From the NCBI GenBank assembly GCA_027296055.1, contig JAPUJT010000064.1:62001-126000 (forward strand): a stretch of DNA of 64,000 bases. Direction: 5' to 3'. Source of the DNA: Planctomycetota bacterium (GTDB lineage: Bacteria > Planctomycetota > JAPUJT01). The notes beneath the pieces were generated by a model, which worked only from the letters and a program-made list of their open reading frames with translations, did no database searches and was not told the origin of the DNA. Shown here piece by piece: positions 14,977-42,453 of this stretch. A program made the translations under genes and the position numbers. The number at the start of each line of letters is the position of its first letter. Position 1 is the stretch's first letter.

Positions 14977-15033
14977 AGAGTTTAGTGACGCGCACCCATC
15001 GCACCCCGAGTTTGGCGCGCGTCATGAAACTCT
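14977..15033. repeat. 17-bp imperfect inverted repeat between convergent mutS and GT2 genes (possible bidirectional terminator)
   Basis: AGAGTTTAGTGACGCGC ... 23 nt ... GCGCGTCATGAAACTCT, 15/17 paired. Confidence 0.55.
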
Positions 15034-16013
15034 CAGCGGGTGCTCGGTCCGGAGACGGCCCCGGTGAGGACGGCTGCCAGGAAAACGAACGGGACCAGGG
15101 CACAGACGGGAAAGAGCAGGATGATCTCGTGTGGCTGGGTCTCCTTGGGGGCGAACTTGTGCAGGTGGATCAGGAGGATGCCCATCAGGGCTGCGGCAGT
15201 GGCGCCGGCAGCCCAGGGCCCCCCCGTGACCACCAGCATGGGCAGGGCGAAGAGGTATACGAGGTAGAGGACGATTCGCGGCTTCCAGATGGATATCAAT
15301 CCTATCTGGTGGACGTCGACGCGGAGGAGGTAGTTCTTCCAGTCCTTCCGGAAGAGGAGAGGGTCGTTCCGATACCGCCACGCCTGAAGGAGCGGGGTAC
15401 GCCAGGTTCCCCGGCCGGGGGGGTGCGTGATCAGCGAAGCCGGTGCGAAGGCGATGCGCCCTCCCCGTTCGAGGACCCGGTGGGCCAGGTCCGTGTCCTC
15501 TCGAAACGGGATAAGGCCGAACTTCTCGTCGAAACGGCCGGCGCGTTCGAACTCTTCTTTCCGGAAGATGAGGTTGCACCCGAGGAATCTCCTGCCAAAC
15601 GGGTTCTGAATCCTGCGGGCAAAGGGTCCGCCTCCCTCCCCTGCCGGCATCACCGTCCGGCCCTCCACCCCCGCTACCTCCGCTTCCGCCAGCGGGGCCA
15701 TCCCTTCACGAAGCCACGCGGGATGGGCGATCGTGTCGCTGTCGAGGAAGGCCAACACCTCTCCCCGGGCCTCTCGCGCTCCTGCATTTCGCGCGGCGGC
15801 GGGCCCCTTGTGCTCCTGGGCGATCACCCGGACCGATCGGCCGGCCTCCTCCGCGACATCGGCGAGACGCTTCGCTGTTCCGTCCGTCGAGCCATCGTCG
15901 ACGATCAGGATCTCGAACTCGCTGGCCGGGAGATCCTGGGCGAAAAGCGAGAGGAGGCAACGCTCCACCGCCTCCCGTCGATTGTGGGTGGGCACGATGA
16001 CCGAGGCAAGCAC
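15033..16013 (-). CDS. GT2 family glycosyltransferase
   Basis: VLASVIVPTHNRREAVERCLLSLFAQDLPASEFEILIVDDGSTDGT...AFLDSDTIAHPAWL; GTG start at 16013; C-terminal TM segments. Confidence 0.88.
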   Translation of the reverse strand: MLASVIVPTHNRREAVERCLLSLFAQDLPASEFEILIVDDGSTDGTAKRLADVAEEAGRSVRVIAQEHKGPAAARNAGAREARGEVLAFLDSDTIAHPAWLREGMAPLAEAEVAGVEGRTVMPAGEGGGPFARRIQNPFGRRFLGCNLIFRKEEFERAGRFDEKFGLIPFREDTDLAHRVLERGGRIAFAPASLITHPPGRGTWRTPLLQAWRYRNDPLLFRKDWKNYLLRVDVHQIGLISIWKPRIVLYLVYLFALPMLVVTGGPWAAGATAAALMGILLIHLHKFAPKETQPHEIILLFPVCALVPFVFLAAVLTGAVSGPSTR

Positions 16014-16014
16014 G

Positions 16015-16896
16015 CTACTTCGCTCCGTTCCAGAGGGTACGGAGCACGGCCGCGTAGCCACGAACCCGCTCAGCCCTTACGTCCCTTCGGCTGGGAGCGA
16101 TCAGGTAGAGGGAGATCCACAGGCCGAGACGCAGGACTGATCTCAAGATAAGGATCCTTCGTAGAGTCTGAAGACTCTGGCGGGAGTAGTGCTTTCGGTA
16201 GAATTCGATCAGGCTCGCGTGGTACCAGCGCAGCTTCTCCTCTCCATATCGGGCATCCCGATTCCCGGAGATGTGGTCGACCGCGGAGCCCCGCTCGATC
16301 GTCGTGCGCCAGGCGGATCGACCCATCCGATAGCAGAGGTCGACATCCTCGTAGTAGAGGAAGAAGGACGGGTCGAACGGTCCCACGTCATCGATGGCAG
16401 CCCGCCGAAGGAGAAGGCAGCAGCCGTGCAGCCATCCCACCGCAGAAGGCCGATCTTCGAACAAGCGATCCAGGAACAAGGTTTCCTTCAGCAGGCCTCG
16501 ATTCGAAGGGAACGGGCGGAGGTGGTCGTGCTCGCCTCCCGGCGCCTCGCGGATGACAGGTCCCAGCGCGCCGATCTCGGGACGGGAGCGCATCGTCCGG
16601 ACCATCTCTCCCAACGTCCCCCTGGAGAGAATCACATCCGGGCCGAGGATCAGAATCAGCTCGGATTTCGTGGAGGCGATTCCATGATTTGCCGCCCGGG
16701 CGAATCCTTGATTCTCGGGCCGGACGATCAGTCGGGCGCGGGATTCCCCGTTGAGAACTGCGCTCCGATCGGTGGAGTGATTGTCCACCACCACGACCTC
16801 GAACGGATCCGGGTAACGAGATTCCTTGATCGCGTCGAGGCACCGGCCGAGCTGATCGCCGGAGTTGTAATTTACGATGACTACGGAGAGGTCCAT
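16015..16896 (-). CDS. GT2 family glycosyltransferase (rhamnosyltransferase-like)
   Basis: MDLSVVIVNYNSGDQLGRCLDAIKESRYPDPFEVVVVDNHSTD...LYYEDVDLCYRM. Confidence 0.88.
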   Translation of the reverse strand: MDLSVVIVNYNSGDQLGRCLDAIKESRYPDPFEVVVVDNHSTDRSAVLNGESRARLIVRPENQGFARAANHGIASTKSELILILGPDVILSRGTLGEMVRTMRSRPEIGALGPVIREAPGGEHDHLRPFPSNRGLLKETLFLDRLFEDRPSAVGWLHGCCLLLRRAAIDDVGPFDPSFFLYYEDVDLCYRMGRSAWRTTIERGSAVDHISGNRDARYGEEKLRWYHASLIEFYRKHYSRQSLQTLRRILILRSVLRLGLWISLYLIAPSRRDVRAERVRGYAAVLRTLWNGAK

Positions 16897-18146
16897 CCGT
16901 TTCCATCCCCCGGTCGATGCCGTCGGAGCGAGAGAGCGCGTGCGCTCACCAGCGCCGCCACTCGTACAAGATAACCCGGCAGGGCCGCCCACCCCCTGGA
17001 GGTGACGCGCGGGGATTCCAGATAGTCCATGAGGGGAGCCAACCGGGCCCTCCAGGTCATCTGTGGCCTGAGTTGCGCCATCCTGCCAGGCGCCTCGCGG
17101 TACCACGATTCCCCTCGAGCCGCCTCCCGGATCGCCCGCGTCCAGGCCTCCACGTCTTCGGACGGCAGGGTCCGTCCCAGCCCCATCCTCCCCACCCAGT
17201 TCCCCAGCTCGTCTCCGCCGCTGCAGATGACCGGCAACCCCGCCCAGAGGCAGTCGACGAGGCGCGTCCGGTAAGCGAAGCGCGCCTCGATGGTACGGGG
17301 ATGCGCCGAGACCCCCGCGTCCGCCTCGAGCAGGTAACGGCCCCTCTCGGCATACCCCCTCCACCCGGGAAGGAAGTGGACGGATTTCCCGTAGAGTCCG
17401 AGCTGGTGGGCCAGCTCCTCGGCCCGCCGGGCCATCTTCGACCCGGTCTCATGCGGCGCGGGGCCTTCCTTACCCAGAAAGACGAGATGCGTCCGCTTCC
17501 GGGCGAGGCGCCCCACGGCGCGGATCGGCGTGAGGGGATCTGTCCAGTCCCAGATCCCGCCGGGCCAGAGGAGGATGAAGTCATCTTCGCCAATCCCCGG
17601 GATGACTCCCCGCAGAACCCGCGATTCTTGCCGCGGTCTCTCTTCCGGGATACCGAATGGGGCGGAGACACAGAGCCCATCGAACCCGGCCCGCCCCATC
17701 GAAGCGAAGGCTCCGGCATACAGGTCCCTCTGTCTTTCCCCCCCACAGACGAAGAAGTCACCCCGCTCCATTCCAAGCAGGAAGAGCCGGTGCTGAAACT
17801 CCGCTCGGCTCTCCGCCGATCCGATCCGGGCAAGGTTTTCCAGAGAGACGGCCGAGGTCAGATCCCAGATGGCAGGCTTGTGCGGGAAGAGTACGAAGAG
17901 AGGCCAGGTGGCCGAGAGGCGCACCCCCTGGGTGATGACGGCATCGCACCGACGGATCTCGTCCAGGATCGACGAGATCTTCGGGGCTCGCATCCGGACG
18001 CCCTTCGGGGCGGGTCCATCCCCCGGGGCGATAAGGGTGACCCGATGCCTCCTCGACAGCTCTCGCGCCGTCTCGTAGGCCCGGATCGCCGGGCCTGACA
18101 TTCGCTTCCCGACCGGGTCCGAGGAGATGATCAGGACATGCCTCAA
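16881..18146 (-). CDS. GT4-like family glycosyltransferase
   Basis: HVLIISSDPVGKRMSGPAIRAYETARELSRRHRVTLIAPGD...FILLWPGGIWDWTDPLTPIRAVGRL; likely TTG start. Confidence 0.8.
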   Translation of the reverse strand: MRHVLIISSDPVGKRMSGPAIRAYETARELSRRHRVTLIAPGDGPAPKGVRMRAPKISSILDEIRRCDAVITQGVRLSATWPLFVLFPHKPAIWDLTSAVSLENLARIGSAESRAEFQHRLFLLGMERGDFFVCGGERQRDLYAGAFASMGRAGFDGLCVSAPFGIPEERPRQESRVLRGVIPGIGEDDFILLWPGGIWDWTDPLTPIRAVGRLARKRTHLVFLGKEGPAPHETGSKMARRAEELAHQLGLYGKSVHFLPGWRGYAERGRYLLEADAGVSAHPRTIEARFAYRTRLVDCLWAGLPVICSGGDELGNWVGRMGLGRTLPSEDVEAWTRAIREAARGESWYREAPGRMAQLRPQMTWRARLAPLMDYLESPRVTSRGWAALPGYLVRVAALVSARALSLRRHRPGDGNGWTSP

Positions 18147-18196
18147 TCCGTCCGCCTTTCTCACAGGCTGCGGTCGACCTCTTCGGGAGCGTCTGC

Positions 18197-18225
18197 TTGC
18201 TTCGCCCGGATGAAGCAACTATACT
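18197..18225 (+). promoter_or_regulatory. Sigma-70-type promoter with embedded inverted repeat, upstream of the 18276 ORF
   Basis: TTGCTT-N17-TATACT; TTGCTTC-gcccggat-GAAGCAA inverted repeat overlaps -35 and spacer. Confidence 0.6.
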
Positions 18226-18275
18226 CAGAGACGTCCTTTAGGTTATCCAGACTGGCCCGAATCCCCAGGGAACGA

Positions 18276-18917
18276 ATGGCCGACGATCACGACACCCAGC
18301 AGGCTCGCACACGGACGGCGCTCGTAGATTCCTCCGGACTGGAGGGAAAGGACGGTCCACCGCCGTCGTCCCCTTCCTCGTCATCCCCTTCTTCATCCAC
18401 GGGTGAGACGCCCGCGCCTGCCTCCAGGATGATCGAGGCCCCCGACCTCCAGGGCCCCGCCCTCCCCATCGCCGACCCCGACGATGCGAAGGAGGTGGTC
18501 GGCAAGTTGGCTCTCTTTCTCCGCGAAGCTCAGAGTGACGCGGCAACCCACAAGAGCCTGGCGACGGCGCTCACCAGGTCACTCCGGGAACTGCGCGAGG
18601 AGAACGAGACGATCACCCGTCGACTCGGGGATCTCGAGAAGGAACTTCTCTCCTTACGGGCCGACAGAGAGGATCTCGAAGGAGCGGTCCGGAAAGGCGA
18701 GGAGGACCGGGTCGCGGCCGGGGCGCAGCTGGCCTCCTCCGAACGCGCCCGATCGGAATCCGAGGAACATATCCACCGACTTCAGGATGAAACTCTCTCC
18801 CTCCGCCGCCGAGTCGAGGAACTGATTCGCGAGAGGGACGAGGCCCTTCTCCGTCGAGCCGACGCCGTCCGGTCGGCCATGAACTCCGTGCGGAAGGCGA
18901 TCCAGGAGCAAATCTAG
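18276..18917 (+). CDS. Ser/Pro-rich N-terminus plus long coiled-coil protein of unknown function
   Basis: PPPSSPSSSSPSSSTGETPAP low complexity then heptad-rich LRELREENETITRRLGDLEKELLSLRADREDLEGAV; own promoter at 18197. Confidence 0.65.
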   Translation: MADDHDTQQARTRTALVDSSGLEGKDGPPPSSPSSSSPSSSTGETPAPASRMIEAPDLQGPALPIADPDDAKEVVGKLALFLREAQSDAATHKSLATALTRSLRELREENETITRRLGDLEKELLSLRADREDLEGAVRKGEEDRVAAGAQLASSERARSESEEHIHRLQDETLSLRRRVEELIRERDEALLRRADAVRSAMNSVRKAIQEQI

Positions 18918-21655
18918 CTCTCTTCCTCTGCGGATCCCTTTCCCATCCACTGACGGATCTTGCCCAACCATCCGTTGCCATGGTCTACTGGGGTTTCACG
19001 CTCTTCCTCGAGTAGGGCTTCGATATTCCTTATGTGTGTCGCCATGTCCGACATGGCGCGATGCTTGGCCTGCAACTGCGCCTCGAGACTCTGCATCTGC
19101 TGATCCTTCTTTGCGACCTGTCCAGCGAGATCCGTCTCTCTCTGCTTCGATGAGACGATCTGGATGGTCCGAGCGTCGGCGACCCTCTCTGCCCGGCGCC
19201 TCGCCTGGTCCTGCGTCTCGAGCTTCTCCCAGATCTCCCTGACGGCCCCCTCCTTGAGAGGTTTCTCCCGATGGAGACGATGGAGCCCGGGGAGAACCGC
19301 CTGCTCGGGACCCTTGTCGGGCGCGAAGGAGGGGTTCCGACAGAACTCCCTCAAAGGGGCCACGACCTTGCTCCAGACGAACTCCTCTCGCACCTTCTCG
19401 ATCTTCTCCCGTATCGCCCAGACTTCATCGGGCTTCTCGACGAGGCGAACGATCGCCGTCGCCAGGGCGTCCGGGTCACCGGCGGGGACGACCAGGCCCA
19501 GTCCTTCGCGATCCACCATCTCCGCCAGAGCGTCACCCTCCGTGCAGATGATCGGGAGACCCGACCACAGGTAATCCATGAACCGGGTCCTGCTTGCGAG
19601 TCGCGCCTCCACCCCCCTCCGATGCGTCGAGACGCCGAAGTCCGAGTCCAGGAGGTAGTCCAGCCGATCCGCATAGGGGACATACCCCTTCTCATTGAAG
19701 AACACGAAGCGGCCATGGAGGCCCAGCTCCTTCGAGAGGGCCATCGCCTGTTCCTGCACCCTCATCCGAGGTACTTCCGGATTCGGATGGCGGGTACCCA
19801 GAAAGAAGAGTTTCACGTCGGGTCTCTTCCGACTCACTCGATCCATCGCATGAATCAGCGTCTCCGGATCGAACCAGTTGAAGATCCCTCCCGCCCAGAG
19901 AATCACCTTGTCATCAGGACCGATCCCCTTCACCTGACCCTTGATCACGTGGCGGCCCTTCACGGGAGCGGTGTCCGGGATACCGAAGGGAACCGTGGCG
20001 ATCATCTTCTCCAGGCTCGTGTCATGGTCGAAGGTCTCCACGTTCAGGCGGTTCAAGGCGGAGAGGGCGCCGAGCCAGTAGTCCCGCTGACGCTCGTTCG
20101 CGCAGAGGAAGAAATCGCCCATCAAGATCTGCTCGTTCGCGATGATCAGGTTCAAGGCGTGAGCTCGCCTTCGATCCTCCTCGCCCATCTCGTTGTACCG
20201 GTAGGTATTCAGGTTTTCGATGGGGAAGGGACAGTAGAGGTCCACGATGAAGATCTTCCGAAGTGTCTTGAGGAAAGAGAGGTGATACAGGGCCCATCCC
20301 TGGACCAGGATGACGTCTCGCTCGGCCGCCAGGCTCCGGAACTCGGCCTGGTTCTTGTCGGAGTACGAAAAGATGCGAAACCCCTCCGGCTTCAGAGTTG
20401 TCTGGTTCGGGACAGCGAGGGTGACGGAGAATTCCGGGGCAAGCTGCCGAGCGAACTCCCAGCACCGGATCGCCGGGCCCGCCATCTCCTCGCCGACGTA
20501 GTCGGTCGAGACGATCAATATCTTCCTGGCAGACCTCCCCTCAGGCCGGGTCGCCCCAGCGATGTCGAATATCCTGAACAGCTCACGCTGGATCTTCCGG
20601 TACCCCGCCCCGAGATCGCCGGAGGCTGGATCTTCCCACGACTCCCCGAACCGAGAGAGGATCTCCGCGTCCGTCCTACGCCGACGCTGCTGGATCTCCT
20701 TGCGCTTCTCCATCATTTGCGGAAGGGCTTTCGCTATCGCGTGGAGGGCGACCAGCGGAGTGGCCGACTTCACGGGAAGGACCTCGCCATCTCCGAGAGG
20801 CCTCGTCGACTCGAGGTCGTATCTGTCGGCCTCGATCTCTCCCCCCATCAGGGCCCGGTGCGCCTGAAGGAGGAAGGAGGCGGGCAGCACTCGATAGAGA
20901 TTCTCGTCCTCCAGGTTCTTGAAGGCGGTGAGGATCCCGTTTCTCTCCAGGAGGTGCAGCTTCTTGTGACCCGGGTGCGAACCTGAGGTGCCGCCGTGAA
21001 CGTGGTAGCAGACCGCCGCGGGACAGTAGACGACCCGGTAGCCCAGGACCCACAGTCTCCAGCCGAGATCCACGTCGACGTAGTGCCAGAGTAGATCCTC
21101 GTCGAATCCGCCGGCTTCGAGGAAGGCATCCTTGCGGATCAGCATCGCGCCTGAGCACGGAAAGAGGGTCTCGTGGTAGTCCATCCCCTTGCCGTCCTTC
21201 GCCTCGCCGTAGGCCTTCTGGAAACCCCGTCCCTCGAAGTTCACCAACCCGCCGGCGTAGTCGACCCGCTCGCCGTCCCAGGAGAGCATCTTCGAGGCGA
21301 CACACACGACCTTCCTCTTGGCGCTCACGGGTCTCAGCATCTTCTCCAGCCAATCGGGCTCGAGCCGGACGTCATTGTTCAAGAAGGCGATGTAGCTCCC
21401 CCCGGCCATCTTCGCCGCCTCGTTGTTCGGCTTCGCGTACCCCTCGTTTCGCATCTTGCGGACGACAATGACCCGGGGAAAGTTCTCACGAATGAAGGAG
21501 ACGGAGCCATCGGTGGAGCCGTTATCCACCACGATGACCTCCATGCGATCACGGGGGTAGCGGAGGGCCTCGAGGGATGGGAGGGACGCTTCGAGATGTT
21601 CCCTGCCGTTCCAGTTGAGGACGATCAGGGTTACAAGCGGCCTCTGGGAGCTCAT
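18914..21655 (-). CDS. GT2-linker-GT4 fusion glycosyltransferase with C-terminal coiled coil
   Basis: RPLVTLIVLNWNGREHLEASLPSLEALRYPRDRMEVIVVDNGSTDGSV (GT2); KEIQQRRRRTDAEILSRFGE linker; ARKILIVSTDYVGEEMAGPAIRCWEFARQL...VILWAGGIFNWFDPETLIHAMDRV (GT4). Confidence 0.88.
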   Translation of the reverse strand: MSSQRPLVTLIVLNWNGREHLEASLPSLEALRYPRDRMEVIVVDNGSTDGSVSFIRENFPRVIVVRKMRNEGYAKPNNEAAKMAGGSYIAFLNNDVRLEPDWLEKMLRPVSAKRKVVCVASKMLSWDGERVDYAGGLVNFEGRGFQKAYGEAKDGKGMDYHETLFPCSGAMLIRKDAFLEAGGFDEDLLWHYVDVDLGWRLWVLGYRVVYCPAAVCYHVHGGTSGSHPGHKKLHLLERNGILTAFKNLEDENLYRVLPASFLLQAHRALMGGEIEADRYDLESTRPLGDGEVLPVKSATPLVALHAIAKALPQMMEKRKEIQQRRRRTDAEILSRFGESWEDPASGDLGAGYRKIQRELFRIFDIAGATRPEGRSARKILIVSTDYVGEEMAGPAIRCWEFARQLAPEFSVTLAVPNQTTLKPEGFRIFSYSDKNQAEFRSLAAERDVILVQGWALYHLSFLKTLRKIFIVDLYCPFPIENLNTYRYNEMGEEDRRRAHALNLIIANEQILMGDFFLCANERQRDYWLGALSALNRLNVETFDHDTSLEKMIATVPFGIPDTAPVKGRHVIKGQVKGIGPDDKVILWAGGIFNWFDPETLIHAMDRVSRKRPDVKLFFLGTRHPNPEVPRMRVQEQAMALSKELGLHGRFVFFNEKGYVPYADRLDYLLDSDFGVSTHRRGVEARLASRTRFMDYLWSGLPIICTEGDALAEMVDREGLGLVVPAGDPDALATAIVRLVEKPDEVWAIREKIEKVREEFVWSKVVAPLREFCRNPSFAPDKGPEQAVLPGLHRLHREKPLKEGAVREIWEKLETQDQARRRAERVADARTIQIVSSKQRETDLAGQVAKKDQQMQSLEAQLQAKHRAMSDMATHIRNIEALLEEERETPVDHGNGWLGKIRQWMGKGSAEEES

Positions 21656-23586
21656 CTCCGGCCCTCCCCCGCCCCGGCCAGGATCTCGTCCAGTCCGAAA
21701 GCCTCCACCAGCGCCCGTCGCGTGTCCTCGTATTCGTCCCCACCGCCAGAAGGTTCTGACCCTATGGAGAACAGGGAGAGGATTTCCTCGTCCGAGCGAG
21801 CGCGACGCGCCTGAATCCGACGTCGTCCGGCCTGGGCCTGCTCGAGGCCTCCGAGGAACCTCTCGACGGCCAGAAGGTGGGCGGCATGAAAGGGAGTGAT
21901 CTTCTCCATCCGGTCGCCATCATCATCGGGCGACCCGAACCGATAGGACTCCGGAGAGATCTCGGAGCTGACCCAACCTCTTTCCAGCGTCAACAATATT
22001 GCCAGAGGGAGGATGCGGTTCAGATTCGCCTCGTCGTAGTTCTTGTAGAGGGCAGTAAGCGCACCCCTTTCCTCCCACACGACCCTGCGGACCCGCTGCG
22101 CCATGTCCAGCTTTCGAGGAGTCCGCAACTGGACGGGGGAGGCGGGAGCGTGACGCACCTCGTATCCCAGGACCCACAGCCTCCAACCGAGATCCAGGTC
22201 GTCCAGGCAGGCATGAAACCCGGCGTCGAACCCACCGGCTTCGAAGAAGACCTCTCGATCGATCAGCATTCCTCCTCCGAAGGGGAACAGGGCGGGCCCG
22301 CTGGGGCGGAGGCCCTCTCCCGTCATCCCCTCTGGCACCTCCGGGAGAGGCCGGCCGAGAAAGTCCATCGCCCCCGGGACGGGCGGGATCAGCTTTCCCT
22401 CGGGCCCGAAGAGACACGAGGTCGAGCAGACGATCCTGGAAGCATCATCGATCGGCTCCAGCAGACCATCGATCCAATCAGCCTCGATCCTGCAGGTCGA
22501 GTCGAGAAATGCCACGTACTTCCCCGATGCTTCCCTGGCGCCCTCCATCCGCGCCGCCGGGATTCCTCTCCGGGGTCGCGAACGGACCGTCCGGACACGG
22601 TGATCGCCGGGGAGAGCGACCTCCTGTTTCCCGCTGCGGTCGACCACCACGACGTCGACACGCTCCATCGGATAGCGCTGATCTCGGATCCGTTCGAGAC
22701 ACTCCTCGAGGGCCTCATCTTCCTCCGAGTGCAGCACGACGACGGAGACCGTCGGCCTCTTCGAACCAACCGGGGCGGCCACCTTCGTCTTCATCCCATG
22801 AAAGAAGACCCCCGCCGAGATGTACTCCAGCTTCTCTGGGCGGAGACTCCGGAACAGGGTGAGATCTTTCTGTTCGCGAAGTCGCTGCAGAATTTCGCCG
22901 ATGGTGAGCCCCCGGAACGTGTTCCGGAGCGCTTCGCTTTGCAGCGACTCCTCGAAGACGCCCAGGATCTCTCTCAATGTGACCCAGGGTTCCTGATGCG
23001 GACCCACCCCACTCTGGATCTTCTCGAAGGCCGACAGCAGCAACTCGAGGCCCGGCCGGGTCACGTTGAAGAAGTGGTTCGGCACCGCGTGAAAGGAGCT
23101 CATGAACGCCGCGTCGATCCGTACCTCCCCGTCTTCCTTGAGCACCCGGTGGATTTCGCTGATGTAGCGACGGGGATCCGTGACATGCTCGAGGACCGCC
23201 TCGCTGACCACCGCGTCGAAGGATCCTTTCCGGAAGGGGAGGTGCAGACCGTCCCCGATCACGTCGGTCGAGGATGACAGGTACATCTCGAGCTGCACGA
23301 CGTGCGGGAAGGCCTGTTTGTCGGCCCCGGCGCCGTCGTCGAGCACGAGGCCTCCCTCGAACCTCTCGATCAGCTCGAGGGATCCGGGGGCGTACGGGTT
23401 CGCCGGCGGGGCCCCCTCGCGCCGTATCTCCCCTCCTGGATCGGGGAGCATGACAGGGACGGAGCCCTGCATCCGGTACACGGCCCAGCACGCCTGGCAG
23501 GTGATCTTCTCCCGCTCCTCTTCAATCCGGACGTCCCCCTGGCAGCGAGGGCAGGCCAGGATTTCGAGGATCCGATCCGCCTTCAT
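21652..23586 (-). CDS. Trm112-like zinc module + SAM methyltransferase + GT2 fusion
   Basis: MKADRILEILACPRCQGDVRIEEEREKITCQACWAVYRM; FDAVVSEAVLEHVTDPRRYISEIHRVLKEDGEV; PTVSVVVLHSEEDEALEECLERIRDQRYP; same linker signature RRRIQARRARSDEEILSLF; ATGA overlap with downstream gene. Confidence 0.85.
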   Translation of the reverse strand: MKADRILEILACPRCQGDVRIEEEREKITCQACWAVYRMQGSVPVMLPDPGGEIRREGAPPANPYAPGSLELIERFEGGLVLDDGAGADKQAFPHVVQLEMYLSSSTDVIGDGLHLPFRKGSFDAVVSEAVLEHVTDPRRYISEIHRVLKEDGEVRIDAAFMSSFHAVPNHFFNVTRPGLELLLSAFEKIQSGVGPHQEPWVTLREILGVFEESLQSEALRNTFRGLTIGEILQRLREQKDLTLFRSLRPEKLEYISAGVFFHGMKTKVAAPVGSKRPTVSVVVLHSEEDEALEECLERIRDQRYPMERVDVVVVDRSGKQEVALPGDHRVRTVRSRPRRGIPAARMEGAREASGKYVAFLDSTCRIEADWIDGLLEPIDDASRIVCSTSCLFGPEGKLIPPVPGAMDFLGRPLPEVPEGMTGEGLRPSGPALFPFGGGMLIDREVFFEAGGFDAGFHACLDDLDLGWRLWVLGYEVRHAPASPVQLRTPRKLDMAQRVRRVVWEERGALTALYKNYDEANLNRILPLAILLTLERGWVSSEISPESYRFGSPDDDGDRMEKITPFHAAHLLAVERFLGGLEQAQAGRRRIQARRARSDEEILSLFSIGSEPSGGGDEYEDTRRALVEAFGLDEILAGAGEGRR

Positions 23587-24308
23587 GCCGCGGACCTCCT
23601 GAGGAGCAAGATCGCCTCGTAGTCCATCTCCACCATCTCGTCCAGTTCCCAACCAAGTCCCATATGGGTATCGGTGTATCGGACGGCTTCGAGAACGTCG
23701 TCGGGAATCCACACGTGAAAGTGCACCTTGTAGTCGTTCTCATCGACCAGTTTCACGAAGTCGCGTAAATCCTTCTCCTTCTTCAGCTCGTGATGGGCGC
23801 GTCCAAACTCGCGGATGTGACTCTCGCGGCTCCCACGACCTCCGTCCTCATGATCCTGGATCAGATGAGCGAGCGTGGTCCGGGGTCGAGTACGGTCGAA
23901 GGTGAAACGCATGTCCGGGATCGCCAGAAAGAGGTCGCCGCCGGGCACGAGGACCCGGTGCCACTCCGAGAGGGCCCCGAGGGGATCCTCCATATGCTCG
24001 AGCACATGACTGGAGATGACGAAGTCCTGGGAGGCGTCGTCGATCCCCTTCAGGGTTTCCCCCGGGACGAGCACGTCCGGCGCTACCAGTCGCTCATCTT
24101 CGTATTCCGGCGAGACCCTCCTCACGGTCTCTGCGTCCACGCAATCCACGTAGATCGCCTGGGCCACCGCCGCGCGCAGCCGCGTCGGGCGGGTGAAGGC
24201 GCCGATCTCCAGACCCCGACCGCGAATCTTTCCCGCGAGCCGATCCCGGATCCGCCTGCCCTGGTCATCCGGCGGAGAGTAGGTCTTTGCCTTGTCGGAC
24301 TGGGTCAT
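23583..24308 (-). CDS. SAM-dependent methyltransferase
   Basis: IRGRGLEIGAFTRPTRL...DFVISSHVLEHMEDPLGALSEWHRVLVPGGDLFLAIPDM. Confidence 0.85.
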   Translation of the reverse strand: MTQSDKAKTYSPPDDQGRRIRDRLAGKIRGRGLEIGAFTRPTRLRAAVAQAIYVDCVDAETVRRVSPEYEDERLVAPDVLVPGETLKGIDDASQDFVISSHVLEHMEDPLGALSEWHRVLVPGGDLFLAIPDMRFTFDRTRPRTTLAHLIQDHEDGGRGSRESHIREFGRAHHELKKEKDLRDFVKLVDENDYKVHFHVWIPDDVLEAVRYTDTHMGLGWELDEMVEMDYEAILLLRRSAA

Positions 24309-25093
24309 CATTTGTACCCACAGAAGAAGACGCAGGGGCTGAGGGCTTTTCGTGCATCGTCGCTGATCTTCTCGAACGGTCCGTAGTCGTTTTTCTCCAT
24401 TCGAGCGACGAGCTCGCCAAACGTCATCCCCAGTGCTTCCTTCCTGGCGGGCGGATCCATCCCTTGCAGAAGGATCGCCAGCACCCACCGAAAGAGATGT
24501 GGGGCGGTAGGATCCCAGGAGACCTGCAGCGGATGGAAATCTCTCGTGAGGCGCCGGAGGCCCTCGACGGTCATGTTGAAGTAGTGCTCCCGGACGGAAC
24601 GGAACGGCTGCATGAACGCCACGCGGAGAAGGATGACTCCTCCGGGTTTCGTGACCCGATGGATCTCCGCCGTGGCGAGGAACGGGTCCGGGAGATACTC
24701 GATCGCGGAGCTCGAATAGATCGCATCGAAAGTCGAGTCCTGGAAGGGAAGCGCGTCAGGGGTGCCAAGGACGTCCGTCGTGGGAAATCGAACCGTGTCG
24801 AACTGGACCACGTGGGGATACTTTTGCTTCTGGTTGCCCGCGCCGTAATCCAGGACGATTCCATCCCTGAACTCCTCCGGGAGATCCCTCGGGATGCGGA
24901 CGTAGGGCTTCTCGACGGCCAGATCTTCCCCCTTCGCCGCCGGTGGAGTCCCCTGGACGATCATCCACGGCACGCCGTCCTCTACCCGGTATCGGTGTCC
25001 ACACTCGGGGCAGAAGAGGGCGTCCCGGATCGGCTCGACCCGCACGCGGCAGGTGGGGCAGCCAAGTATTTCGACAAGACGGTCGAGATCCAT
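24308..25093 (-). CDS. Trm112-like zinc module + SAM methyltransferase
   Basis: VEILGCPTCRVRVEPIRDALFCPECGHRYRVEDGVPWM; VLDYGAGNQKQKYPHVVQFDTV; paralogous to the methyltransferase half of 21652..23586. Confidence 0.85.
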   Translation of the reverse strand: MDLDRLVEILGCPTCRVRVEPIRDALFCPECGHRYRVEDGVPWMIVQGTPPAAKGEDLAVEKPYVRIPRDLPEEFRDGIVLDYGAGNQKQKYPHVVQFDTVRFPTTDVLGTPDALPFQDSTFDAIYSSSAIEYLPDPFLATAEIHRVTKPGGVILLRVAFMQPFRSVREHYFNMTVEGLRRLTRDFHPLQVSWDPTAPHLFRWVLAILLQGMDPPARKEALGMTFGELVARMEKNDYGPFEKISDDARKALSPCVFFCGYK

Positions 25094-25099
25094 TTCTCC

Positions 25100-30521: not shown

Positions 30522-30577
30522 TGCTCAACCCAACCTGCTGAGTCCCAAGAAGTTGGACGATACCTGGGGGCGCGCGC

Positions 30578-30606
30578 ATTCTAGCTTGCCCTATGCGAGA
30601 TTACAA
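30578..30606 (-). promoter_or_regulatory. Putative sigma-70 promoter internal to the glycan locus
   Basis: Minus strand TTGTAA-N17-TAGAAT directly upstream of the 29124..30521 gene. Confidence 0.5.
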
Positions 30607-33393: not shown

Positions 33394-33401
33394 GAGCCAG
33401 T

Positions 33402-36275
33402 TCAGTGGGGACCGGAATCGCCGATGCCCCGGGATCTCAGTCTTCGCACCGTCTCACGGAGAGGGGACGCGGCAACGATGAGACAACTGAGGACCGCCAA
33501 CGCCAGACCGAGCAAAAGAGAAGAGGGTAAGTATCGAAACTCTACCTCGTGCGCGCCGGCCTCCAGGGACACCGCTCGAAAGAGACCGTTCGCCGGGAAA
33601 ATCTTCCGAGGTTTGTCATCGACGATCGCGCTCCAGCCGGGAAAGTAAGCGTCGAGGAGGACGAGGTAGCCTGGGGCATCCATCGTGACGGCGATTTTCA
33701 CCCGGTTGGCCTCGTACGCGACGATCTCGACGTTCGGCCTCTCCGGCGGCCCCCCATCCGGATGTCTCCCGCCGGGATGTCCATTGACGAGAGCCGCCCG
33801 CGCCAGACGCGGATGATCATCCCCCCCCTCGAGGATGACGGTCTCACGAAAGTCCAGCCCTCCGGCTCGAAGACGGTCGAACGCCTCGTCCTCCGTTCCG
33901 ACCCATTCGGCCCGGGAGACCAGATAGGCCCTCGGCAAGCACTTCAGGTTCTCGAGGATCGTCACATCTTCATCATAGACGACCCGGTACCGTTCCGCCG
34001 AAGGGCTATAACCCAGATCGAAACCGAGGTCTCCGTTCTTGATCACACCATTCTCCAGACGGCTTCCCTGCGCGTAACGGCCCGTGGGGTGCATCCAGAT
34101 CGTGGCAGCGTTGCCCGTGGTCGCATCGGGGCAGGCCACCGTGAAGGAGTACGATTTCCCGAGGGAGTCGGGCAGAGGATCGAAGGGAAACAGATGGTGC
34201 GCATTGTCCTTCACGCGCTCAACCCGATCTTCGACCACCCGCAGCGGTTCCCCCCCCGGCATGCCGTCGTACAAACGGAACTCCAGTCGGCCCCGGATCT
34301 CTCTCCCATAGGCGGCCATGTATACGCTCACGGCAGACAATCCTGCCCTCGAGGCCTTGAAGGTCTGGCCCACCTCGAGGCCCTGGACGATCTCTCCCAC
34401 AGGCACGGTACCTGGAGTGACAACGGATGCCGCCACTCCAGGTGGCCAGAGCCTTCCGCCCGGCCGGGAGATCACGTACTTCAAGTTGATCAGATCTGCC
34501 CCCTCGATGTCCACGTCGGGTATTGCGTCCCCGCTGACTATATTGAAGGGCGCCTCCCCCATGTTCATGACCTCCTTCATCCATCGCATGTAGCGGCCGA
34601 CGAAGATCGGGAAGTTCCCGTCGATCGCATCCAGACCGAATGCGGCGGCTGAATTCGGCATCAGGATCCCTTTCGTGCTCAAGACGCGGAAGTGGTCTTC
34701 AAGCTGCCGGTCCTTCAAGAACTTGACGTAGGGCGCCTCCAGAAACGGGTCGGTGCGATCGAGCCTTGTCCGCGGAACGGGAAGGTACAGGTCCACCGCC
34801 AGCACGAGGATCAGCGCCCCGGCCATGGCGCTCGAGGAAATCCATCCTCTCCGAGATCCTTGCGCCAGAGCAAGCACCATCAGGGCGACGAAGGCGGGCG
34901 CCACGTGTCCGCGCAGCATCGTGGACACCGCGCCCTTCTCGACGGCTTCGGGGTGCAATCCCCAGATGGAGATCCCCACGAGAGCCAGCATCCCTAGAGA
35001 CACGACGCGCAGTGGGAGACGCCGACCTCGCACGAACGCGTCCATCGAGGCTCCTGCCAGCGCGCACATCGAGACGTAGAGGACCGGGCTGAAAAATCGC
35101 GTGTGGGTCGCCCGATCGAAGAGAGGAAGCTGACCTACGATCCAGTTGAAGCCCGGAAATCCGTAGATCTTGAGCGCCGCGAAGAGGGCGGCCCCCATGA
35201 AGAACGGCCAGGGCGGCCGCCGACCTGTGGAACCGATGAACGCGAGGATCGCGAAGATGGTTATGGCCATGCCAGCATAGCCGGGATCCCATACGGCCAG
35301 GGAGCCGTTCCATCGAGCCGAGAGCGGCCCCAGGCTGTGGGGAGCGAAGATCTGGGTGATCGCCTCGAAGGGCATCGCCCACAGACCCACGTCCGGCGAA
35401 TTGGTGTGAAACGAGATGGGGAGCCATTCCACGAACGGGATCCAGACAGGCGCGGAGAGCCCGAGACCGAGGAGGCTCGCCCCGACGGCGTAACCGACCC
35501 GCTTCCAGAAGTGCTGTCGCATGTCCGGTAGGGTCGCGGAGCGGTAGATGACGTAGGCTGCGGCAAGCAGTATGGCGAACGCCGACGGCTCGGGCGATCC
35601 CGCGAGAATCTGGAGGGCAACGGTTCCCGCCAAAGGAGCCACCGTTCGCATTCCGGGTTGCCGAACAGCCCTCTCCGCGAAGTAGAGGAGCAACGGAAGC
35701 AGGAGAGAGGAATTGACGGATACGAGATTGACGTTCCAGACCTGGAACCCACAGAGCATGTACCCGTATGCCCCGAAGAGGGACCCGGGTCGTTCCAGGC
35801 CCATGCTGCGGAGATAGACGAACATGAAGATCCCGGACAAAAAGAGACGCAGGAATATGAGCGTATCCCATACCCACGGCGCGTCCGAGATGATCAGGAT
35901 CCACTGGAGGGGGTAGAGGAGGGCGGAAGGCAGTTCCGCCAGGAAGGGTTGCCCGCAAGCCAGGTGGGGGTTCCAGAGGGGCAACTGGCCGCTCCAGACC
36001 ATGTTGTGCGCGGCTCGGGCAGCTGGCTCGTGAAGGAAGGCGGAGCCTGCCGGATCGATCGTCGGAAAATCGCCCGACCATTCCCCTTCGAAACCGTACG
36101 ATCCCAATCCCGTGGGGCTTGCCCCCTGGACGAAGTTCGTGGTCAGAAATGTCCGCCCGAGAAAGGCGACGTCATGAAAGGACACGATGACGCCCAGGGC
36201 GAGGAAGACGGGAGCCCCCCAGAGACCGATCTTTCGTTGGCCCTTGGGAGCCGGCCCGGAACCCTTACTTGACAT
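33402..36275 (-). CDS. YfhO-family multi-pass membrane protein, tandem paralogue
   Basis: LWNPHLACGQPFLAELPSALLYPLQWIL; VLLDAYFPGWSAIVDDKPRKIFPANGLFRAVSLEAGAHEVEFRYLPSS; extensive similarity to 30601..33393. Confidence 0.85.
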   Translation of the reverse strand: MSSKGSGPAPKGQRKIGLWGAPVFLALGVIVSFHDVAFLGRTFLTTNFVQGASPTGLGSYGFEGEWSGDFPTIDPAGSAFLHEPAARAAHNMVWSGQLPLWNPHLACGQPFLAELPSALLYPLQWILIISDAPWVWDTLIFLRLFLSGIFMFVYLRSMGLERPGSLFGAYGYMLCGFQVWNVNLVSVNSSLLLPLLLYFAERAVRQPGMRTVAPLAGTVALQILAGSPEPSAFAILLAAAYVIYRSATLPDMRQHFWKRVGYAVGASLLGLGLSAPVWIPFVEWLPISFHTNSPDVGLWAMPFEAITQIFAPHSLGPLSARWNGSLAVWDPGYAGMAITIFAILAFIGSTGRRPPWPFFMGAALFAALKIYGFPGFNWIVGQLPLFDRATHTRFFSPVLYVSMCALAGASMDAFVRGRRLPLRVVSLGMLALVGISIWGLHPEAVEKGAVSTMLRGHVAPAFVALMVLALAQGSRRGWISSSAMAGALILVLAVDLYLPVPRTRLDRTDPFLEAPYVKFLKDRQLEDHFRVLSTKGILMPNSAAAFGLDAIDGNFPIFVGRYMRWMKEVMNMGEAPFNIVSGDAIPDVDIEGADLINLKYVISRPGGRLWPPGVAASVVTPGTVPVGEIVQGLEVGQTFKASRAGLSAVSVYMAAYGREIRGRLEFRLYDGMPGGEPLRVVEDRVERVKDNAHHLFPFDPLPDSLGKSYSFTVACPDATTGNAATIWMHPTGRYAQGSRLENGVIKNGDLGFDLGYSPSAERYRVVYDEDVTILENLKCLPRAYLVSRAEWVGTEDEAFDRLRAGGLDFRETVILEGGDDHPRLARAALVNGHPGGRHPDGGPPERPNVEIVAYEANRVKIAVTMDAPGYLVLLDAYFPGWSAIVDDKPRKIFPANGLFRAVSLEAGAHEVEFRYLPSSLLLGLALAVLSCLIVAASPLRETVRRLRSRGIGDSGPH

Positions 36276-37710
36276 ATCCTAGCGAGCGCAGTCTCTCCAT
36301 GAGCTCCGGGTCCTTCTCCGGCGCTTCGGTCTCTGCCGCCACCCCTTCGGTATCCCCGAGATCATCCAAGAGCTTGATGTGCTCCCTGAACACGGCCAGG
36401 GCTTCCCGTGCTCTGGCACTCTCGCGAGGCGCGACGCCCGCCTGTTCCTTCGGGTCCGCGGTGAGGTCGTAAAAGGTAATCTCCTTCGTGTCCTGCCGCT
36501 CGATGATCTTCCAACGGGAAGTCCGCAACGATCGCAGGGGTGGATTGTCCCTCCCCGGCAGCGTCCGCAGGCTGCTGTAGGCCGGCGGCAGATCGATGTC
36601 CTTCTTCCGGCCATCCAACGCGGGGAGAAGACTCACTCCAAAGATGCTTGAAGGGGGTGGTCGCCTCACGATCTCCAGGACGGTTGGGAATACGTCGATC
36701 AGCCTTACCTGTGATTCGATCTTCAGACCGGGTCGAATGACGCCCGGCAGTCTCATGACGAGAGGGACACGGATCGACTCGTCGAATAGTGTCTTCGCGT
36801 GACCCATCTGGCCATGATCCGAGAACTCCTCACCGTGGTCCGACGTCAGGATGATGAGCGTCCGGTCAAGAACCCCATGGTTCCTCAGGAGCTCGAGAAC
36901 ATCGCCGATCATTTCATCCGTCGCGCGGATCCCGCCGTCGTAGAGCGCAATGGCCCTCTCGTAGGGATCGAGACCGTCTCCCTGCGGGAACATCTTGTCG
37001 TAGGGGGAGGGGGGGGCGTATGGCATGTGGACGTCCCAGATGTGAACGAAGGCGAAGAACGGTTCCTGGGGTGGTTTCTCGAGCCAGGACTCCAGGGATC
37101 CAAGAATCAACGGATTCGTGGAGCCGGGGACCTCGTCGGGGCCCGGAGTCCGATTGAAGATGACATCGTGGACCACCTCGTCGCCTGGTTTCACGTAGGT
37201 GCTACAGTTGTAGTAGTGGTCGAAACCGCGAGCGAATCCATCTTGCGGGCGCAGGAAGTGTCCCGAATAGAATCCCAGCGTCGCATAGCCGGCATCCTTG
37301 AGGACCCCGGGAAGGACAGGCAGTCGGTTCTCGAGTCGCTTGTTCGGAAGGTCCGCTCCATGGATCGGAGCGTAGACCGAGGTGAACAGGGCGACATGAG
37401 AGGGGAGTGTCCGCGAGCCGGACGCGATGGCCCATCGAAAGAGCGCTCCCTCCCGGGCCAACGTGTCGATGTGGGGGCTCGTGTCCCGCGCGTACCCGTA
37501 ACACCCAAGGTGATCGGCCCTCAGGGTGTCGATGCTTATGAGCAGCACGTTGGGCTGCCGGAAGGGCGCGGAGGGGGCCTCCCCCCGCGACTCCGTCTCA
37601 CGTCCTTGGCCACCCCCCGAGATGGCGTAGACCAGTGCCAGAAGGCACAGGCAAACCACCACGAGGCCAGTCCGGACGGACCCAAAGATTCGACATCTCC
37701 CGCTTCGCAT
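36265..37710 (-). CDS. Sulfatase/alkaline-phosphatase superfamily enzyme, N-terminally anchored
   Basis: PNVLLISIDTLRADHLGCYGYARDTSPHIDTLAREG; GSRTLPSHVALFTS; TLIILTSDHGEEFSDHGQMGHAKTLFDESIRVPLVM. Confidence 0.88.
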   Translation of the reverse strand: MRSGRCRIFGSVRTGLVVVCLCLLALVYAISGGGQGRETESRGEAPSAPFRQPNVLLISIDTLRADHLGCYGYARDTSPHIDTLAREGALFRWAIASGSRTLPSHVALFTSVYAPIHGADLPNKRLENRLPVLPGVLKDAGYATLGFYSGHFLRPQDGFARGFDHYYNCSTYVKPGDEVVHDVIFNRTPGPDEVPGSTNPLILGSLESWLEKPPQEPFFAFVHIWDVHMPYAPPSPYDKMFPQGDGLDPYERAIALYDGGIRATDEMIGDVLELLRNHGVLDRTLIILTSDHGEEFSDHGQMGHAKTLFDESIRVPLVMRLPGVIRPGLKIESQVRLIDVFPTVLEIVRRPPPSSIFGVSLLPALDGRKKDIDLPPAYSSLRTLPGRDNPPLRSLRTSRWKIIERQDTKEITFYDLTADPKEQAGVAPRESARAREALAVFREHIKLLDDLGDTEGVAAETEAPEKDPELMERLRSLGYVK

Positions 37711-37935
37711 TTAAGCCGCGAGGCTATTCTCGGGCTGATCGGATTGCAAGAGTCCTCCGGCGCCGCGGTAAAACCACGATTCGAAACGGTGAGACATCCG
37801 CACGACTCACCGCCAGGGGGGACATGCATCCGACGCACGCCAACCGCGGCCTGAAACGGACCGAACTTCCGGGGCCTGACGCCTTCCCTGCGGCCGCCCA
37901 GGGTACGTGTCCCCCAGCGCGCTGGTGCGCTCGAC

Positions 37936-37966
37936 TTTGCCTAATCATTGAATCTCATCTAAACTG
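37936..37966 (+). promoter_or_regulatory. Putative promoter for the 38001 glycosyltransferase gene
   Basis: TTGCCT-N17-TAAACT (37937..37965) about 35 bp before the ATG; CCAGCGCGCTGG perfect palindrome just upstream. Confidence 0.45.
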
Positions 37967-38000
37967 GTGGGCTCTAGCGCGCCAGAAGGAAGACGAGTGA

Positions 38001-39131
38001 ATGAAGACCGCCTTGGTCCACGACTGGCTTACGGGATGGCGCGGGGGCGAGAGGTGCCTGGAGGCGATCCTCCCCCTTTTCCCCGACGCCCCGGTCTACA
38101 CGCTCTTTCACCACCCGGGGAGCGCGAAAAAGGAAATCGAGTCTCGCCCGATTGTCACGTCCCCCCTCCAACGGTGGCCGGTCCCGCGAAGCCGATATCG
38201 ATGGTTGCTCCCCTTCTTCCCCTGGGCCGCGTCGCGGCTCGACCTGGATGGCTTCGACCTGGTCCTCTCGATCAGCCATTGCGTGGCGAAGGGTGTTATC
38301 ATCCCCCCTGGGGCGATCCATGTCTCCTACTGCCTCACTCCGATGCGTTACGCCTGGGACCTGGGGGGCGAGTACTGGCGGGGCAGCCGTCTGCCTCTCC
38401 CCGCCGCGCCCGGAGGGGCCCTTCTTCGGGCGTGGCTCCGCGCCTGGGATCGCGAGACGAGCCGGAGAGTCACGCGGTTCGCCGCGATTTCCCGCTTCGT
38501 CGCCGCGCGAATCCGGCGAGTGTATGGACGCGAGTCGGAGCTGATCCCTCCCCCGGTCGACTGCACGCGATTCGTGCCGGACGGTCGACCGGAGAGCTAC
38601 TTTCTGATCGTCTCCGCGCTGCAACCGTACAAACGCGTCGCGGATGCGGTGCTGGCGTTTCGCCGGCTGCGGTTGCCGCTTCGCATCGTGGGGATCGGTC
38701 CAGAGCGCCGTCGCCTGGAGAAGCTGGCCGGGCCCGAGACCGAATTCGTCGGAGCGGTGGATGAAGAGGCGCTCGTGAAGCTCTACGCCGGCTGTCGCGC
38801 CCTGGTCTTCGCCGGCGTGGATGACTTCGGTCTCGCCCCGGTCGAAGCGATGGCCTGTGGGCGGCCGGTCGTGGCCCTCGGGAGAGGAGGAGTGCTCGAC
38901 ACGGTGATCCCTCTCCACGGACGCAACAAAAAAGACGCCACCGGCGTCCTGTATCGAGGGGAAGGGCCGGGGCCTCTCGGCGAGGCCATCGGGCGTTTCA
39001 TCCGCAACGAGGATCGTTTTGATCCCTCGGTGGCCCGGCGCCGAGCCCTCGAGTTCGACCTTCCCCGATTCCAGGAGCGCATGCGGAGCTTCCTCGAAGC
39101 AGCGATCGCCAGACGAGGGGACCGATGCTGA
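38001..39131 (+). CDS. GT4 family glycosyltransferase (mannosyltransferase-like)
   Basis: MKTALVHDWLTGWRGGERCLEAILPLFPDAPVYTLFH; GVDDFGLAPVEAMACGRPVVALGRGG. Confidence 0.9.
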   Translation: MKTALVHDWLTGWRGGERCLEAILPLFPDAPVYTLFHHPGSAKKEIESRPIVTSPLQRWPVPRSRYRWLLPFFPWAASRLDLDGFDLVLSISHCVAKGVIIPPGAIHVSYCLTPMRYAWDLGGEYWRGSRLPLPAAPGGALLRAWLRAWDRETSRRVTRFAAISRFVAARIRRVYGRESELIPPPVDCTRFVPDGRPESYFLIVSALQPYKRVADAVLAFRRLRLPLRIVGIGPERRRLEKLAGPETEFVGAVDEEALVKLYAGCRALVFAGVDDFGLAPVEAMACGRPVVALGRGGVLDTVIPLHGRNKKDATGVLYRGEGPGPLGEAIGRFIRNEDRFDPSVARRRALEFDLPRFQERMRSFLEAAIARRGDRC

Positions 39132-40519
39132 AGCGACACCACCAGCTGATGCTCTCGATCCTGGTCATCCTCGACGCCGCCGCCACCGCTCTCTGCTGGC
39201 TGATCGCCTACTTCCTCCGGGCACACCTGGGACTGCTCGCCGTGACGCCGGGGAATCTCGATCCCCGTCTCTACACCTCGCTCCTCGCCGTCGCCGTCAT
39301 CGTCGGGCTGGTGTCCTACAAGGCCTGCGGTCTCTACCGTCCGATGCGCCTCGGGACCATGGGGAGAGAGCTGTGGGAGATAGCCAAGGCGACGATCCTC
39401 TCCCTGTCGATCCTGGCCGCCCTGCTCTTCTTCCTGGGTGTGCGGGACGTCTCGCGCGGGGTCGTGGTTCTGTTCGCCGCCATCCACCCGGGTCTGTTCT
39501 TCGCCTCACGCGTCTCGATCCGGCTCGCCCTCCGTCGGATGCGACGCCGCGGCCTCAACCGGCGCTACGCACTGATCGTCGGGGCCGGCAGAGCAGGGCA
39601 GAGGATGGCGGAGGCGATCGCACGAAACCCGTGGACGGGGATCGAGGTGCTGGGCTTCCTCGATGACCGTCCGGAGCGGCACGGAAAAATCTACCTGGAC
39701 CGCCCTGTCCTCGGGCCGGTGGCCCTCCTCAAGGACCTCCTCGCCGAAAAGACGGTCGATCAGGTCTACCTCTCCCTGCCGCCGGACGAGAAGGACGGGA
39801 TCTCGACCGCGATCGATGCGCTGGGACAGGCGCCCGTGGACGTCAAGTTGATTCCCGAGGGGCTGGATCTCCTGTCCCTCCGTAGAGAGATCTCGTCGCT
39901 GGACGGCATCCCGGTGATCAATCTGCGCGAGAGCCCGCTGTCCGGGTGGAACCTGGCGCTCAAGCGAACCGTGGACATCAGCCTGTCCTGCGCCGTGATG
40001 GTCTTCACGGCGCCTGTGATGCTGGGTATCTCCGTGGCGATCCTCATGACCTCCGGCAGACCCATCTTCTTCAGCCAGACCCGGATGGGCCTCGACGGCC
40101 GATCTTTTAGGATCCTGAAGTTCAGAACGATGCGCGTCGGGGCCGAGAGCGAATCGTGGACCCGGCCGGACGACCCCCGCCGCACGGCGCTAGGAAGGTG
40201 GCTACGGCGCTTCAGCCTGGATGAGCTGCCCCAGTTCCTGAACGTGATCCTGGGGGAGATGAGCATCGTGGGTCCTCGCCCCGAGCGCCCTCTCCTGATC
40301 GAAGAGTTCCGCCGCACCTTCCCCCGCTACATGCTGCGGCACCGGGTCAGGGCCGGGATCACCGGCTGGGCTCAGGTCTCCGGGTGGCGGGGGAACACCT
40401 CCGTGAGGAAGAGGATCCAGTATGATCTTTATTACATCGAGAACTGGTCAATGGGCTTCGACTTGCGGATCCTGGGGCTCACCCTGCTGAGGGGGTTCGT
40501 GCAGCGGAACGCCTACTGA
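39125..40519 (+). CDS. Undecaprenyl-phosphate sugar phosphotransferase (WbaP/WcaJ-type polyprenyl glycosylphosphotransferase)
   Basis: N-terminal TM bundle, VGAGRAGQRMAEAI; C-terminal LKRTVDISLSCAVMVFTAPVM...RMGLDGRSFRILKFRTM...DELPQFLNVILGEMSIVGPRPERP. Confidence 0.93.
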   Translation: MLKRHHQLMLSILVILDAAATALCWLIAYFLRAHLGLLAVTPGNLDPRLYTSLLAVAVIVGLVSYKACGLYRPMRLGTMGRELWEIAKATILSLSILAALLFFLGVRDVSRGVVVLFAAIHPGLFFASRVSIRLALRRMRRRGLNRRYALIVGAGRAGQRMAEAIARNPWTGIEVLGFLDDRPERHGKIYLDRPVLGPVALLKDLLAEKTVDQVYLSLPPDEKDGISTAIDALGQAPVDVKLIPEGLDLLSLRREISSLDGIPVINLRESPLSGWNLALKRTVDISLSCAVMVFTAPVMLGISVAILMTSGRPIFFSQTRMGLDGRSFRILKFRTMRVGAESESWTRPDDPRRTALGRWLRRFSLDELPQFLNVILGEMSIVGPRPERPLLIEEFRRTFPRYMLRHRVRAGITGWAQVSGWRGNTSVRKRIQYDLYYIENWSMGFDLRILGLTLLRGFVQRNAY

Positions 40520-42296: not shown

Positions 42297-42318
42297 GGGA
42301 ACGTCCCCCCCAGAATAC

Positions 42319-42411: not shown

Positions 42412-42453
42412 GTGTTCTTCGTACGCAGGCAAGGGCAACGCTTCGTTTTCTAT

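Follow-up and report, generated by a model that had tools for sequence, protein, structure and literature searches.

The window analysed here is a stretch of 64,000 nucleotides from a Planctomycetota bacterium (positions 62001–126000 of contig C168, JAPUJT010000064.1, own genome G000), and the subject is a run of glycosyltransferase (GT), methyltransferase and YfhO genes at 15033–40519. The cluster most likely builds a methylated surface sugar chain which is decorated outside the membrane. Our preferred interpretation, held with slightly better than even confidence, is that it forms one half of a two-locus surface polysaccharide system dependent on an ATP-binding cassette (ABC) transporter in a Gram-negative, LpxC-bearing host, the product being decorated by YfhO enzymes. 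The evidence consists of the genes, their domains and paralogy, a sister exporter locus on another contig and neighbourhoods that recur in other genomes. The own genome is a draft of 5.26 Mb in 206 contigs (91.7% complete, 5.6% contamination) and the sole member of its class in the genome collection; 246 genomes sampled across the phylum served for comparison. LpxC is present in it, so a lipopolysaccharide (LPS)-bearing, Gram-negative source cell is likely.

Ten minus-strand genes run from 37710 to 18914, overlapping or no more than 79 bp apart, in the order alkaline phosphatase (AP)-superfamily enzyme, YfhO2, YfhO1, GT4, GT2, GT2-GT4 with a beta domain (983 aa, F983), Trm112-methyltransferase, methyltransferase (MT301), Trm112-methyltransferase-GT2 (MG686) and GT2-GT4 with a coiled coil (913 aa, F913). 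Beyond the 913-aa gene lie a plus-strand open reading frame (ORF) and then three further minus-strand GT genes, and the opposite flank (38001–40519) holds a divergent GT4 gene and a WcaJ-type initiator. The features are the following, with transmembrane abbreviated as TM and the start and end residues of protein features in brackets.

15033..16061, minus strand: GT2, 342-aa ORF with C-terminal membrane segments (PF00535, 9.9e-33; TM-like 263–281, 313–331)
16015..16896, minus strand: GT2 (PF00535, 3.3e-24, at residues 160–327 of a long ORF; open from 17364, start probably ATG 16896)
16881..18218, minus strand: GT4-like glycosyltransferase (39% identity to the GT4 half of F913; Pfam 21 bits, cut-off 27)
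18276..18917, plus strand: coiled-coil-like ORF, 213 aa (heptad signal; GC at third codon positions, GC3, 0.75)
18914..21655, minus strand: F913, extended GT2, GT4 and C-terminal coiled-coil-like tail (Pfam; heptad signal from about residue 837)
21652..23586, minus strand: MG686, Trm112-like zinc ribbon, methyltransferase and GT2 (PF03966, PF08241, PF00535; ORF open from 23712, ATGA start)
23583..24311, minus strand: MT301, S-adenosylmethionine methyltransferase (PF08241, 9.1e-11; ORF open from 24488, ATGA start)
24308..25093, minus strand: Trm112-methyltransferase, 261 aa (MT261; PF03966, PF08241)
25100..28051, minus strand: F983, GT2, GT4 and C-terminal beta-sandwich domain (about 860–983; Pfam; phmmer to the YfhO proteins)
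28048..29127, minus strand: GT2 of the same extended subfamily (GT2c; PF00535, 2.7e-30)
29124..30521, minus strand: GT4 (GT4b), sister of the C151 GT4 adjoining Wzm/Wzt
30601..33393, minus strand: YfhO1, GT-C-type membrane protein with inserted beta-sandwich domain (about 595–770; PF09586, 2.2e-17)
33402..36275, minus strand: YfhO2, paralogue with the same inserted domain (about 600–780; PF09586, 7.3e-19)
36265..37710, minus strand: AP-superfamily enzyme, N-terminal anchor, Thr at the nucleophile position (PF00884, 3.2e-50; TLPSH, residues 101–105)
38001..39131, plus strand: GT4 (PF00534, 1.5e-17)
39125..40519, plus strand: WcaJ-type undecaprenyl-phosphate glucose phosphotransferase, the initiating enzyme (TIGR03023, 471 bits, cut-off 410.75; Bac_transf/CoA_binding_3)
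2297..3574, minus strand, outside the span of the finding: GT2 resembling dolichol-phosphate mannose synthase (DPMS), fused to a methyltransferase (PF00535, PF13489)

This layout agrees with an earlier, sequence-only reading of the window, which had placed the ORFs correctly and had described a minus-strand run from 37710 to 15033 interrupted solely by the ORF at 18276–18917. Its domain calls hold in Pfam for the two GT2-GT4 fusions, the 686-aa methyltransferase-GT2, the twin YfhO paralogues, the AP-superfamily enzyme and the divergent GT4 beside the initiator. Five ATGA overlaps are real (F913/MG686, MG686/MT301, MT301/MT261, F983/GT2c and GT2c/GT4b). The proposed Trm112-methyltransferases are found in the 686- and 261-aa proteins, while no Trm112-like part was found in the third methyltransferase. 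For the 686- and 301-aa ORFs, the probable starts are internal ATGs in the ATGA overlaps (23586 and 24311), which would give about 644 and 242 aa. Codon-position GC is coding-like throughout the cluster (GC3 0.75–0.87), and the protein of 16881–18218 aligns with other GT4s despite its sub-cut-off Pfam score. A scan for TM-like segments found none in the GT fusions or methyltransferases, about nine in each YfhO protein and one anchor in the AP-superfamily enzyme, a predicted topology consistent with cytoplasmic assembly and decoration outside.

The exporter for the cluster's product probably lies at another locus of the genome. In accordance with the sequence-only reading, a Pfam search for Wzx, Wzy or an ABC exporter among the cluster's own genes found none. 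That reading had supposed an unusual or unlinked export route; an unusual one is not needed, and unlinked candidates are present, as the search of the remaining genome yielded Wzm/Wzt, Wzx-like and Wzy_C genes, all of them unlinked to the cluster. The Wzm/Wzt pair lies on contig C151, which came up when the own genome was searched with the 913-aa protein. A 456-aa GT4 on this contig matches the window GT4 at 29124–30521 with 57% identity over its full length (448 residues), the two being sisters in the tree with support of 100/98, and the next two genes encode the ABC-2 permease Wzm (PF01061) and the ATPase Wzt (PF00005). Within the same 20 kb lie genes for a 393-aa Trm112-type methyltransferase, 34% identical to the 261-aa protein of the window, for further methyltransferases and GT4s, and for a 2078-aa protein in which a sub-threshold methyltransferase match (20.5 against 21.2 bits) precedes three GT2 domains and one GT4 domain. 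In another genome of the sample, G134, a GT4 of the same family is likewise followed by Wzm, Wzt and then two proteins bearing the beta domain. From the order GT4-Wzm-Wzt on C151 and in G134, the window GT4 family appears to be at home in ABC-exporter loci, and we infer from these gene relationships that the C151 Wzm/Wzt may carry the product of the cluster.

The YfhO proteins score 63.2 (YfhO1) and 68.1 bits (YfhO2) against a PF09586 cut-off of 28.5, and in each the beta domain sits in a long hydrophilic stretch before the last TM-like segment. A full model of YfhO2 is weak (pLDDT 61.8); its ten best matches in the PDB are AftD, ArnT (including the undecaprenyl phosphate-bound form) and entries containing oligosaccharyltransferase, with TM-scores of 0.23–0.46, matches of the kind expected for a predicted GT-C enzyme. 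A sequence search of the PDB with YfhO2 returned nothing below 0.5. Since 84 of the 246 sampled genomes contain YfhO, YfhO alone is not special in the phylum. Its position is more telling: YfhO lies within about 10 kb of the cluster's GT2 subfamily in 7 of 26 genomes (G191, G019, G134, G195, G044, G149 and G084), where at most 1.4 were expected (simulated P ~2e-4), the seven coming from three families (f20, f30 and f40), so that they do not count as entirely independent events. A GT2-GT4 fusion of about 820–970 aa is present in several of these loci as well. The sequence-only proposal that the locus assembles a surface glycan, methylates it and has it decorated by YfhO is supported, and some of the gene associations recur in other genomes. 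The conserved co-occurrence it had looked for is seen for parts of the set only, in other genomes of the phylum, the class itself being represented by a single genome. As a separate observation, PrkA genes adjoin GT2/YfhO loci in G108 (L071 715–5441, with DUF444 and SpoVR) and in G084 (L075 1–1454).

A domain of about 120–150 aa is common to YfhO1, YfhO2 and the last 120–140 residues of F983, and phmmer with the F983 domain reaches the two YfhO proteins at 2e-15 and 3e-12. The domain is undescribed in that it has no Pfam family: up to E = 1, neither the F983 nor the YfhO1 segment matched any Pfam family significantly, and a PDB sequence search with the alignment of the domain family found no relative. 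The AlphaFold model of the YfhO1 domain (pLDDT 89.5) is nearly all-beta. In a Foldseek search of the PDB with this domain, the two matches below 1e-3 are jelly-roll domains of a viral capsid and a phage baseplate (TM-score 0.62). Assignment to a known carbohydrate-binding module (CBM) family was rejected, as CBM6, CBM22, CBM28 and CBM36 match weakly (TM-score 0.36–0.47). AftD and S. aureus YfhO are among the larger GT-C enzymes proposed to have carbohydrate-binding domains for the acceptor polymer (PMC8035078). Given the jelly-roll and weak CBM fold matches, glycan binding by the modelled domain is a reasonable supposition.

At E 1e-6 the domain occurs in only five of the 246 sampled genomes, including the own genome. 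On contig C11 of G134 (L083 6547–12659), the genes after Wzt encode a protein with a weak sulfotransferase match, a beta domain and a long coiled coil, and then a GT4/WsaF-like protein bearing two beta domains. In G032 its carrier is a methyltransferase less than 10 kb from Wzm, with a multi-GT2 protein and a homologue of the C151 methyltransferase as neighbours; the domain is found on two adjacent YfhO proteins in G001 and on an unannotated protein in G029. Tentatively, and with considerable doubt, we suggest that the domain marks cytoplasmic GTs and methyltransferases and periplasmic YfhO proteins that act on one polysaccharide, thereby coupling assembly inside to decoration outside. Neither the beta domain nor the GT4 had a match in plasmid searches, and the sole match of the 983-aa protein in the genome contig collection was a weak Clostridia GT2. 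On contig C93 of the own genome (L107 4085–6763), a further multi-spanning membrane protein has a divergent beta domain and no Pfam match.

The AP-superfamily enzyme had been described as belonging to the sulfatase superfamily, and as a literal function sulfatase is rejected. The S1 (formylglycine) sulfatase signature is C/S-x-P-x-R; in the window protein, T-L-P-S-H aligns to S-G-P-S-R of 7p24, so that the signature is absent and Thr stands at the nucleophile position, while S-D-H-G-E is kept. Phosphotransferases such as LtaS and EptA are known to use a Thr nucleophile. By its motif, the enzyme is more likely a transferase or hydrolase of phosphate groups than a sulfatase. In G001, from outside the window's class, the two adjacent YfhO-beta genes are divergent from two sulfatase-family genes (L104) with T-P-P-A-H in place of T-L-P-S-H, and other contigs hold tandem copies of the GT2 subfamily, one being sister to the GT2 of the 913-aa protein (99/95). 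The contigs are short, and the YfhO-sulfatase and GT2 groups stand on separate ones. G001 is the best evidence, from one genome, that twin YfhO-beta proteins, an AP-type enzyme and a GT2 array recur as a set.

Taken together, the following pathway can be proposed. WcaJ would start the chain as undecaprenyl-PP-glucose, and soluble GT2 and GT4 enzymes would extend it in the cytoplasm. Its methylation would be the task of the Trm112-type methyltransferases, including the one joined to a GT2, and might also stop chain growth, as has been proposed for WsaE (PMC2943079). The lipid-linked chain would then cross the membrane via the Wzm/Wzt encoded on C151. On the outer side, the two predicted GT-C enzymes of the YfhO family would use an undecaprenyl phosphate (Und-P)-sugar donor to attach side-chain sugars, and the Thr-type AP-superfamily enzyme would add or remove a phosphate-linked group. 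Through the beta domain that they share, YfhO1 and YfhO2 would bind the glycan outside and F983 the same glycan inside. The donor may come from the DPMS-like GT2 at 2297–3574, a possible Und-P-sugar donor enzyme for the YfhO proteins judging from its phmmer matches to dolichol-phosphate mannose synthase 5mlz (2.6e-17) and to sll0501 5ekp.

Several observations weigh against the ABC-dependent two-locus system. Because the exporter is on a separate contig, the coupling of the two loci has to be inferred, and C151 could make a separate glycan of its own. In most of the synteny cases (families f20, f30 and f40), no Wzm/Wzt relative was detected in the scanned stretches. The Wzt ORF of C151 has 309 aa, for which Pfam gives ABC_tran and no C-terminal carbohydrate-binding domain. 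A C-terminal cap-binding domain in Wzt is not universal among ABC systems; with a short Wzt lacking it, cap-gated export as in A. aeolicus (PMC9445017) is not indicated. A search of the own genome, a metagenome-assembled genome about 92% complete, gave no match to a GtrA-type flippase (PF04138), to which a Wzx-type flippase is an alternative in multi-component transmembrane glycosylation (PMC8035078). The DPMS-like gene lies 11 kb from the cluster with unrelated genes between. WcaJ-type initiators are common in Wzx/Wzy systems, and the own genome has a Polysacc_synt/Wzx-like gene on C74 and Wzy_C proteins on C132, C160 and C134. These same genes would serve a Wzx/Wzy-dependent exopolysaccharide or O-antigen, in which WcaJ and the GTs make a repeat unit, Wzx (C74) and Wzy (C132, C160 or C134) flip and polymerise it, and YfhO decorates it. 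We regard such a route as a real but clearly less probable one, as the candidates are unlinked to the GT cluster and none was seen beside paralogues of the window GT4 or Trm112-methyltransferase families, where Wzm/Wzt was seen; moreover, ABC-type assembly typically features large multi-domain GT fusions with methyltransferases (PMC11231755).

The presence of two YfhO genes in one operon-like run, and the matching of the YfhO2 model to oligosaccharyltransferases besides ArnT and AftD, would also fit a self-contained glycolipid or glycoprotein pathway, in which a short methylated oligosaccharide made by the GTs is transferred by the YfhO proteins themselves and no classical exporter takes part. 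This is improbable, since the YfhO proteins characterised so far transfer single sugars from C55-P donors (PMC8035078), the model is weak and a translocation step is still needed. Equally hard to favour is a loose island of duplicated and fused GT genes serving several glycans: the four GT2 copies of the window do not form one clade (3 changes of label on the tree) and relatives hold only parts of the set, but the tight ATGA-coupled gene order and the domain common to F983 and both YfhO proteins point to one product.

Among known systems, four come closest. The rhamnopolysaccharides of S. mutans (serotype c carbohydrate, SCC) and group A carbohydrate (SccN/SccP, SccM/SccQ, SccH; PMC11754754) resemble the proposed model in having an Und-PP chain, ABC export, an Und-P-sugar synthase with GT-C decoration and a phosphate-linked group added outside; in SCC, ABC export is reported to be followed by GT-C glucosylation from Glc-P-Und and then glycerol phosphate transfer by SccH. 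SCC is Gram-positive; in the present case the exporter is unlinked, there are methyltransferases, the predicted GT-C enzymes belong to the YfhO family and carry a beta domain, and the AP-superfamily enzyme has a predicted role. CsbB-GtcA-YfhO glycosylation of lipoteichoic and wall teichoic acids (B. subtilis, S. aureus, L. monocytogenes; PMC8035078) shares a predicted GT-C enzyme of the YfhO family, above the Pfam cut-off, and, in the window, a DPMS-like GT2, but here the host bears LpxC, two adjacent YfhO proteins carry the beta domain and the genome search found no GtrA-type flippase. The S-layer glycan cluster of G. stearothermophilus (WsaE, WsaF, Wzm/Wzt; PMC2943079) likewise has a methyltransferase-GT fusion, multi-GT proteins, an initiating sugar-phosphate transferase, Wzm/Wzt and overlapping genes; here wzm/wzt are unlinked, the YfhO proteins, AP-superfamily enzyme and beta domain are extra, and the order in MG686 is Trm112-methyltransferase-GT2. 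K. pneumoniae O7 ORF6 (methyltransferase, CBM, kinase, coiled coil and GTs; PMC11231755) shows methyltransferase, CBM-like, coiled-coil and GT modules in ABC-type enzymes, while here the modules are spread over several proteins (MG686 with methyltransferase and GT2 and no evident coiled coil, F913 with a coiled-coil-like tail and no methyltransferase), no kinase was found and YfhO enzymes are present.

Every enzyme class of the cluster is known, and what is new is the combination with twin YfhO proteins in an LPS-type organism and a shared cross-membrane domain without a Pfam family. Characterised YfhO proteins are Gram-positive; literature searches for YfhO together with O-antigen clusters turned up no account of a locus like this one, and none of the papers retrieved placed YfhO in the glycan locus of an LPS-type organism. 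The cluster and its relatives offer a concrete setting where YfhO would decorate an ABC-exported glycan, and the shared beta domain a testable handle on what the enzymes bind and on scattered genes acting on one glycan. If true, a reader-type domain would couple inside assembly to outside decoration in a Gram-negative phylum.

Two minor observations concern the surroundings of the array. The 213-aa plus-strand ORF at 18276–18917 is tail-to-tail with the 913-aa GT gene, and no homologue of it was seen in the compared loci. Adjoining the cluster, 40513–53618 holds likely origin genes by a reading of the sequence that was partly tested with Pfam: a MurD-like ligase, two tRNA-Ser and a signal peptidase, followed by DnaA-, DnaN-, GyrB- and GyrA-like proteins.

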